Positions 1,386 through 44,622 of a stretch of DNA of 64,000 nucleotides are shown here, in pieces. The notes below the pieces were generated by a model. That model worked only from the letters and a program-made list of their open reading frames with translations. It was not told the origin of the DNA and made no database searches. Position 1 is the stretch's first letter. Every line of letters starts with the position of its first letter. Made by a program: the position numbers and the translations under genes. The DNA comes from Wocania arenilitoris (GTDB lineage: Bacteria > Bacteroidota > Bacteroidia > Flavobacteriales > Flavobacteriaceae): contig NZ_JAKKDU010000016.1 in the NCBI RefSeq assembly GCF_021728535.1, forward strand, positions 1 to 64,000, written 5' to 3'.

Positions 1386-2519
1386 TTATTGGGTTATGGC
1401 TTTTAAATGTGCATATACAGGATTGCCTTGAACTGTTAATTCTACCTTTCTTTCAAAAATTTTAATTCCTTTTACATCATTCAGTTTGCCATCTGGAGCA
1501 AACGCTTTTACGCCATAAAAGTTTTCATTTTCACCGATAGCTTTTACATGAATAAGGTTTCCTGAACGGCTAATACCTTTTACATCAAGTTTAGCATCAG
1601 TTTCAGTTATAGCTTTAATGTTGTATATTTTCCCATCGGTACCTATAGCTACTATTGGAGAATATTCGTCCTTGCTATCAAGTATTTTTACAGGTAATGC
1701 ATATCCATCAACAAAAGCTTTAATATTAATAAAACTATGTTGTTTAGAATCTTGAATAGCTTTTACATCAAATTTATTGCCATCTGCATCAAAAGCTTTT
1801 ACATTTAAATTTTTACCTTCAGGAGTTACAGCTTTAATATTCCAGATAATTCTTTTAAATTCACTTTCTTTTTTCTTTTTCGACTTACCAGAAATTTCAA
1901 AATCGTCTTCGTTCGCTGCAGGATGCATTGCTTTTATATGCGCATGAATATCAACACCATTAAGTGACATCTCTCTGTCTTTAGAGTTAATTTTTATACC
2001 TTTAATGTCGTTTTGTTCTCCTGTTGGCGAAATGGCTTTAACACCATAAAACTCACCTTTTTTAGAAATTGCTTTTATAAGAACTATATTTTCAAATCTT
2101 GCAACTCCTTTTACATCTAGTTTTTCACCCTCTGGAGTTATAGCTTTTATATCGTATACGTCTCCACCATTAAAGGCTTTAATTGGCTTAAGTTTATCTT
2201 TGCTCACTAACATTTTTACAGGCAGTTTTTTATTACCAACAAAAGCTTTTACATTTAAAAAACTACTTTGATCTGAGTTTTGAATTGCTTTAATGTTTAA
2301 TAAATTACCTTCTTTATCAATGGCCTTGATATCTAATGTTGTGCCATCTGGTAATACGGCATTAACATTCCAAAGAATATCATTAACTTTTGCTATTTCT
2401 TTTGTGGTTGTTTTAGCTTTTAAAGAATCATTCTTACAGGCAGTAAACAAAAATAAAAACCCTAATAAAAACAAATAGTTAAAGACCGTTTTACTTAAAT
2501 AATGTCTTGATTTTTCCAT
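1386..2519 (-). CDS. Lipoprotein with two tandem copies of a DIKAI/NVKAF-type repeat domain
   Basis: A 377-residue lipoprotein: basic start, hydrophobic segment at about 14-26, lipobox FTAC. The mature part is two copies of one domain of about 155 residues, roughly 47-200 and 225-377, joined by a Lys-rich linker (GKSKKKKES). Each copy is built from short units of the form DxKAI..DG, such as LDIKAI, LNVKAF, LDVKGI and FYGVKAI, and each ends with a HAHIKAM or YAHLKAI motif. The regular pattern suggests a beta-repeat or solenoid fold in the periplasm or on the outer membrane. I recall single-domain lipoproteins of this kind, of unknown function, in Flavobacteriaceae; no enzyme motif is visible. 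It has its own terminator (1331-1360) and a promoter with an operator-like palindrome shared with tonB (2548-2591). Confidence 0.85.
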   Translation of the reverse strand: MEKSRHYLSKTVFNYLFLLGFLFLFTACKNDSLKAKTTTKEIAKVNDILWNVNAVLPDGTTLDIKAIDKEGNLLNIKAIQNSDQSSFLNVKAFVGNKKLPVKMLVSKDKLKPIKAFNGGDVYDIKAITPEGEKLDVKGVARFENIVLIKAISKKGEFYGVKAISPTGEQNDIKGIKINSKDREMSLNGVDIHAHIKAMHPAANEDDFEISGKSKKKKESEFKRIIWNIKAVTPEGKNLNVKAFDADGNKFDVKAIQDSKQHSFINIKAFVDGYALPVKILDSKDEYSPIVAIGTDGKIYNIKAITETDAKLDVKGISRSGNLIHVKAIGENENFYGVKAFAPDGKLNDVKGIKIFERKVELTVQGNPVYAHLKAITQ

Positions 2520-2547: not shown

Positions 2548-2591
2548 TAAAAGTACAATTAAAAGGAAAGAAGAAGAATGACTTTTGTCAT
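2548..2591 (-). promoter_or_regulatory. Regulated promoter: ATGACAAAAGTCAT-N22-TACTTTTA
   Basis: Read on the minus strand, a perfect 14-base palindrome-type site ATGACAAAAGTCAT (2591-2578) is followed after exactly 22 bases by TACTTTTA (2555-2548), a near match to the Bacteroidota -7 box TAnnTTTG. The start codon follows 28 bases later. The same two elements with the same 22-base gap lie before tonB at 43433-43476. The palindrome occupies the usual -33 position, which fits an activator site; the regulator is unknown. Confidence 0.6.
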
Positions 2592-43432: not shown

Positions 43433-43476
43433 ATGACAAAAGTCATAGTATTTGGCTTGATATTAATATACTTTTA
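43433..43476 (+). promoter_or_regulatory. Regulated promoter of tonB: ATGACAAAAGTCAT-N22-TACTTTTA
   Basis: ATGACAAAAGTCAT at 43433-43446, exactly 22 bases, then TACTTTTA at 43469-43476, then 21 bases to the tonB ATG. Identical elements and gap occur at 2591-2548 on the minus strand. The 22-base spacers differ in sequence, so it is the elements and geometry that are kept. Confidence 0.6.
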
Positions 43477-43497
43477 GAAGTATAAAATGTGTGAGTC

Positions 43498-44226
43498 ATG
43501 AAACCTAAAAAGAATCCAGAATTAGAGATAGGACGCCATAGTAGCCTGTACTTTGCTATAGGTTTAAATGTGATGCTGTTTTTGTCTTGGCAAGCTTTAG
43601 AGTATAAAACTTACGATAAAGAACTTGTAACTATTGATGTGTTAAGTATTGATGAGGAATTAGATGAAGATATTCCTATTGTTAATATTGATGCACCACC
43701 ACCACCGCCACCACCCGCTGTAATACAAGAAGCTATTACAATTGTTGAAGATGTAGAAGAAGTTGAAGAAACTATAATTGAAAGTACCGAAGCAAACCAA
43801 TCTGATGCTCTTGAAGAACGTATTGTAGCCGTTAGCGATGTTGATGTTGAAGAAGTAGAAGAAGATGTTGAAGTGCCATTTGCAGCCATTGAGAATGTTC
43901 CTGTTTTTCCGGGTTGTGAAGGTCAACCAAAGAAAAAAATGAAAGATTGTTTTCAGAAAAAAATTCAAGAGCACATTGTAAAGAATTTTAAATACCCAGA
44001 CGTTGCTTTAGATATGAGTATACAAGGTCGAGTGTCTGTAATATTTGTTATAGATTCTAAAGGGCATACAACCAATGTAAGGTCAAGAGGTCCAGATAAG
44101 GTCTTAGAAACCGAAGCCGAAAGAATTATTGGCTTACTACCAAAAATGACACCTGGTAATCAACGTGGCAAACCTGTAAAAGTAAGTTATGCTGTACCTA
44201 TATTTTTTAAGCTATATGAAAGATAA
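43498..44226 (+). CDS. tonB: TonB-family energy transducer
   Basis: A 242-residue TonB-like protein. One N-terminal membrane helix (SSLYFAIGLNVMLFLSWQAL, about 14-33) anchors it in the inner membrane, a proline run (DAPPPPPPPAVI) and an acidic spacer rich in Glu and Val (VEDVEEVEETI) cross the periplasm, and the C-terminal TonB domain follows (FPGCEGQPKKKMKDCFQKKI, FKYPDVALDMSIQGRVSVIF, GNQRGKPVKVSYAVPIFFKL). It would pass proton-motive energy to outer-membrane receptors. ExbB/ExbD are not in the window. Confidence 0.92.
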   Translation: MKPKKNPELEIGRHSSLYFAIGLNVMLFLSWQALEYKTYDKELVTIDVLSIDEELDEDIPIVNIDAPPPPPPPAVIQEAITIVEDVEEVEETIIESTEANQSDALEERIVAVSDVDVEEVEEDVEVPFAAIENVPVFPGCEGQPKKKMKDCFQKKIQEHIVKNFKYPDVALDMSIQGRVSVIFVIDSKGHTTNVRSRGPDKVLETEAERIIGLLPKMTPGNQRGKPVKVSYAVPIFFKLYER

Positions 44227-44294: not shown

Positions 44295-44380
44295 AGTTTT
44301 AATTTTACCTATTAACGTAAGTTCAATATAATTTATCTTTAAAATGCCTGTCATTCATCAAATTAATTGTCTATGTCAGG

Positions 44381-44442
44381 TTGAGCGCAGTCGAAACCTA
44401 AAAAGAATTCTAGTTTTTGAAAAACCTTTCGACTGCGCTCAA
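44381..44442. repeat. Inverted repeat with 16-base arms (GAGCGCAGTCGA type)
   Basis: TTGAGCGCAGTCGAAA (44381-44396) and TTTCGACTGCGCTCAA (44427-44442) are perfect reverse complements with a 30-base spacer. TTGTC and GACAA farther out extend the symmetry. This sequence is one I recognise as widely dispersed in flavobacterial spacers (CAGGTTGAGCGCAGTCGAAACC). The remainder of 44295-44622 holds no gene. Confidence 0.7.
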
Positions 44443-44622
44443 GGAGACAACTGTTAATTTATTGGCAATTTATATGAATACATAAAATTATTGTATCGAA
44501 CTCAAGTTAATTAATAATTACAGAATAACATTTCATCCCTAAATAATAACAATTTGGCAAGTCGGTTTTTAAATAATCGAGCTTTTGCTTGATATTTGCT
44601 TCATAATTAAAAAATAATATCA

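Follow-up and report, generated by a model that had tools for sequence, protein, structure and literature searches.

Class II activators such as CRP and FNR classically bind at a position centered 41.5 bases upstream of the transcription start. FNR class II promoters of E. coli and Aliivibrio contain TGA and TCA half-site cores that flank four bases and are centered at −41.5; their targets function in low-oxygen metabolism. In rhizobia, microoxic control is exerted by FixLJ-FixK2, in which a two-component system provides the input to Crp/Fnr-family control of cbb3 oxidase, hemN, and denitrification genes. MalR-type Crp/Fnr homologs have been proposed for the Flavobacteriales and assigned to carbon sensing through a Bacteroides MalR matrix (PMC8510549). 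The sigma-A −7 box of Flavobacterium psychrophilum, TAnnTTTG, spans −12 to −5, and oxygen limitation induces cbb3 oxidase and heme synthesis in this species (PMC9723704). We found no described Fnr box or regulon for Bacteroidota or Flavobacteriaceae in the open-access literature, which is not proof that none has been published.

Paired sites upstream of a lipoprotein gene and tonB

The window analyzed here, a 64-kb stretch of DNA, contains the arrangement ATGACAAAAGTCAT-N22-TACTTTTA letter for letter at two locations: 2591–2548 on the minus strand, upstream of a lipoprotein gene, and 43433–43476 on the plus strand, upstream of tonB. Both occurrences had been reported in the initial annotation and proved exact. 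At the first, an Fnr-type box (ATGACAAAAGTCAT; 2578–2591, minus strand) that is evident from the sequence and kept upstream of orthologs has a predicted position of −48 to −35 with its center at −41.5. It is separated by a 22-base spacer (2556–2577), which comparison of sites indicates to be fixed in length and variable in sequence, from the −7 box TACTTTTA (2548–2555), the Bacteroidota sigma-A element located at −12 to −5 (PMC9723704). The position of the −7 box places the predicted transcription start near 2543. The target of this box (1386–2519, minus strand) encodes a lipoprotein of 377 amino acids in which Pfam recognizes two copies of DUF7486 (PF24307), a largely beta repeat in which IKAI/VKG motifs are abundant. 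When its predicted structure (pTM 0.43, mostly beta) was compared with the PDB, TM-scores were about 0.2 or lower among the matches listed. Relatives of the lipoprotein are present in 16 of 199 Flavobacteriaceae genomes; further DUF7486 relatives were observed in some metagenome-assembled genomes labeled Saprospiraceae and Planctomycetes (labels as given).

The second site, on the plus strand, has the same organization. The box ATGACAAAAGTCAT (43433–43446; again predicted at −48 to −35 and centered at −41.5), which is kept upstream of tonB orthologs, is followed by a 22-base spacer (43447–43468), the −7 box TACTTTTA (43469–43476; positioned according to PMC9723704), and a predicted start near 43481. 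The target gene (43498–44226) encodes a TonB-type energy transducer of 242 amino acids (TonB_C, PF03544; Pfam). An inverted repeat, GAGCGCAGTCGAAA ... TTTCGACTGCGCTC, lies 3′ of tonB at 44375–44445 and resembles a dispersed flavobacterial repeat.

With starts predicted from the reported position of the F. psychrophilum element (PMC9723704), a −7 box at −12 to −5 and a spacer of 22 bases together set the 14-bp dyad between −48 and −35, such that its center falls at −41.5, as at class II promoters. The initial suggestion that the palindrome stands in place of the −33 element is therefore borne out by the geometry, and the −33 element would be dispensable because the dyad occupies the position of a class II activator.

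Could the matching pair be a coincidence among the many 14-mers of an AT-rich window? A first-order Markov simulation yields 0.022 palindromes and 0.00013 composites expected per 64-kb window, compared with two composites observed. ATGACN4GTCAT occurs just three times in the 3.49-Mb genome; the third copy, on contig C33, has a −7-like box (TACTTTCG) at the same 22-base distance and lies 62 bp upstream of hemN. Exact 14-mers often recur in AT-rich DNA, and a shuffle test that allowed one mismatch, in which three matches were found, was not significant by itself, with 15 of 100 shuffles reaching three. The argument from the exact 14-mer would thus be weak support if taken alone. Because the composite pattern was picked after the sites had been seen, the case rests on conservation as an independent test.

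Conservation of the site and its spacing

Among 32 tonB orthologs from about 29 genera, 30 have, in the 200 bp upstream, MTGAY-N4-RTCAK, a gap of 22 bases, and TAnnTTTR; the reversed control gave no matches. In three congeners, the tonB ortholog is preceded by ATGAYAAATGTCAT-N22-TAATTTTA at an unchanged distance from the ATG. A tonB paralog served as a negative control, and the box was found in none of its four copies. The N22 composite also precedes 39 of 55 DUF7486 lipoprotein loci, which were drawn from Algibacter, Hyunsoonleella, Aquimarina, Kordia, Maribacter, Lutimonas, and others, with no matches in the reversed control of these 55 loci. The gap at the lipoprotein loci measures 22 in 39 matches and another length in one. 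In a set of 199 Flavobacteriaceae genomes, which with few exceptions represent different genera, the strict N22 form produced 1258 matches that are spread over 156 genomes, compared with 13 in the reversed control. When the gap was left free to vary from 8 to 36, 77 of 108 family matches fell at 22.

The initial annotation had held the composite to be hard to explain by chance and had named a lack of conservation upstream of orthologs as a result that should overturn it. Such a lack was looked for, and what emerged was conservation of the site across many genera, a fixed gap of 22, and zero control matches at the orthologous loci. Together with the excess over the reversed control across the family, these findings leave coincidence with a negligible probability, and we regard that reading as already refuted by the conservation upstream of orthologs. 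The strict motif ATGAC-N4-GTCAT fared less well: it is too narrow and was dropped because orthologs vary at the Y/R and M/K positions. The real site is approximately MTGAY-N4-RTCAK, after which a gap of exactly 22 bases leads to a Bacteroidota −7 box; the ATGACAAAAGTCAT pair is one example of it. The same site at the same spacing before both genes is common to dozens of related bacteria.

A candidate Fnr-type regulator and its regulon

The two sites very probably serve an Fnr-type regulator as class II activator sites, and the best candidate for this regulator in the genome is an Fnr homolog of 225 amino acids. This Crp/Fnr protein is encoded on contig C33 (224147–224824) adjacent to the cbb3 oxidase cluster and contains cNMP-binding (PF00027) and HTH_Crp_2 (PF13545) domains, both above the Pfam cut-off. 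Its best NCBIfam match is Fnr PRK11161, to which it scores 86 bits, below the cut-off of 228. PRK11161 models a proteobacterial subfamily, so that falling below its cut-off bars the name of a PRK11161-type Fnr rather than an Fnr-like role. The score against the curated FixK model, 60.9 bits, is also below the cut-off (300). In a HMMER alignment, C4, C7, and C106 of the homolog correspond to C20, C23, and C122 of FNR (E. coli numbering). The position of the E. coli ligand C29 lacks a cysteine, which implies that the cluster ligands differ or that the cluster is absent. Six cysteines (C4, C7, C29, C53, C59, and C106 in the numbering of the homolog) are invariant in 30 of 30 genera, as checked in 30 of 119 Fnr orthologs. 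The recognition helix, TESAIR, contains E191 and R195, which align with FNR E209 and R213 and are invariant in 30 genera.

The likeness to FNR of E. coli and Aliivibrio therefore comprises half-site cores over N4, the center at −41.5, low-oxygen metabolism targets, cysteines that match those of FNR at three of the four ligand positions, and an E/R recognition helix. The differences are that the outer bases of the site are M/K here and T/A there, that the promoters considered here carry the Bacteroidota −7 box TAnnTTTR, that the cysteine at the C29 position is missing, and that tonB and the DUF7486 lipoprotein are among the targets.

A relaxed search of the whole genome with ATGAYN4RTCAT-N20-24-TAnnTTTD returned ten matches at nine palindromes, compared with two matches in the reversed control. 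In addition to the DUF7486 lipoprotein gene and tonB, the targets are pta-ackA (gap of 23), a cytochrome c lipoprotein encoded by the first gene of the nosZ operon, the cbb3 oxidase cluster, a CBS-domain protein (gap of 20), a putative SLC13-like transporter (by reading of the sequence), a thioredoxin-like protein, and a 230-amino acid gene divergent from a tilS-like gene. Palindromes outside this list precede hemN and fnr itself. The sites are unequal in soundness, as illustrated by the gaps at the CBS-domain and pta genes; a site very similar to that of pta, also with a gap of 23, was seen in a congener. The initial guess of a CRP/FNR-like regulator was right. A regulon that links the surface lipoprotein to TonB-dependent transport had also been predicted, and both genes are indeed members, with conserved sites. 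The notion of an envelope-specific regulon did not survive: because the other members include the cbb3 oxidase, hemN, the nosZ operon, pta-ackA, fnr, and a few more, the lipoprotein and tonB are very probably part of a general Fnr regulon for low oxygen. It is tempting to guess that they joined it so that iron or heme uptake, or energization of the outer membrane, is raised as low-oxygen heme enzymes are made.

From the sequence we infer oxygen sensing by the C33 homolog, binding to the box, activation, and autorepression, with oxygen as the signal. In this model, Fnr would assemble an Fe-S cluster and dimerize when oxygen falls. The dimer would bind MTGAY-N4-RTCAK centered at −41.5 and contact RNA polymerase, thereby standing in for the missing −33 element, and transcription would start about five bases past the −7 box. 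The promoter of fnr differs from the 22-bp activating spacing found elsewhere: in this genome and, overall, in 20 of 29 genera, exactly 8 bp separate the box from the −7 box, about 50 bp upstream of fnr. Fnr bound there, centered at about −27.5, would stand in the way of polymerase. The position fits autorepression, because the bound regulator would cover the core promoter.

Two other accounts of the signal and the reader were weighed against oxygen sensing by the C33 homolog. The box may be read by an Fnr-family activator that responds to nitric oxide, redox state, or a metabolite, for example through cysteines that act as thiol switches. The nosZ operon among the targets would suit such a signal, as would the non-cysteine residue at the third N-terminal position. 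We nonetheless judge it unlikely, since low-oxygen control is typical of the cbb3 oxidase, hemN, and pta-ackA, C4, C7, and C106 align with FNR ligands, and F. psychrophilum induces cbb3 oxidase and heme synthesis upon oxygen limitation (PMC9723704). Alternatively, a different protein could recognize the dyad, for example the genome's other Crp-family protein, which adjoins YeeE/YedE-like genes on contig C37 and has cNMP-binding and HTH_Crp domains as well. That assignment is highly improbable: the recognition helix of the C37 protein differs (SRVVISR), its locus has no box, and the number of boxes per genome tracks C33-type Fnr and REC-Fnr genes instead. MalR-type proteins (PMC8510549) resemble the C33 protein in being Crp/Fnr homologs of the same order; they are set apart by description, in that the box and targets reported here point to low-oxygen control.

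REC-Fnr proteins and a possible exchange of sensors

Some box-rich genomes are without a close Fnr ortholog and encode proteins of 350–370 amino acids that combine receiver, cNMP-binding, and Crp-type HTH domains (REC-Fnr). Where examined, their genes adjoin a histidine kinase (PAS-type by inspection), often near uspA-like genes. The REC-Fnr recognition helix, ATExxIRxLS, is nearly that of Fnr. REC-Fnr was detected in at least 85 of 199 Flavobacteriaceae genomes in a search that scored up to ten candidates per genome. Genomes were classified by cut-offs of our own choosing (E ≤ 1e-45 for an Fnr ortholog and E ≤ 1e-100 for REC-Fnr). The mean number of boxes per genome was 13.3 with both regulators (n = 48), 5.0 with Fnr only (n = 71), 6.2 with REC-Fnr only (n = 37), and 0.8 with neither (n = 43); the corresponding medians were 13, 4, 5, and 0. 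Each regulator class differed from the class with neither (Mann-Whitney p ~1e-12), a value that ignores relatedness; the counts are not independent because the genomes are related by descent. Exceptions occurred in both directions. Four genomes with 2–18 boxes had no regulator detected, three of them being under 90% complete, and eight genomes with a regulator had zero strict boxes.

In REC-Fnr-only genomes, boxes lie upstream of hemN, of a cytochrome gene of the nosZ-operon type, and of uspA genes. At tonB, the exact box was found in one of these genomes, and a variant altered at the outer base (CTGAY), again with N22, in three more. In genome G103, the sole homolog detected with the Fnr query is a REC-Fnr; the genome contains nine boxes nonetheless. 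At six of seven fnr loci without the palindrome, fnr has a REC-Fnr gene as a neighbor no more than about 1 kb away (G112, G063, G161, G136, G073, and G123). The boxes in REC-Fnr-only genomes suggest, as the simplest reading, a swap of sensor over an unchanged regulon, with REC-Fnr as a putative DNA-binding protein. We lean, with some reserve, toward a model in which Flavobacteriaceae keep one low-oxygen regulon and its promoter geometry while exchanging the sensor, which may be Fnr, REC-Fnr beside a histidine kinase, or both, often as near neighbors, all reading MTGAY-N4-RTCAK-N22. A two-component system that feeds into Crp/Fnr-family regulation of cbb3, hemN, and denitrification genes would be a feature shared with FixLJ-FixK2. 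Unlike in that system, a single protein in Flavobacteriaceae combines the receiver with the Crp/Fnr part, and this protein and a cysteine-type Fnr appear to use a common box.

The mechanism is of a known kind; what is new is the membership of tonB and the DUF7486 lipoprotein, the fixed spacings of 22 and 8, and the apparent swap of sensors. These findings provide a large, ecologically important family with a low-oxygen regulon of exact promoter geometry, and they place the TonB energy supply and an uncharacterized lipoprotein under probable respiratory control. They also suggest how a Bacteroidota promoter without a −33 element becomes activated, and they point to what may be a natural example of a regulon that is conserved while its sensor is exchanged.
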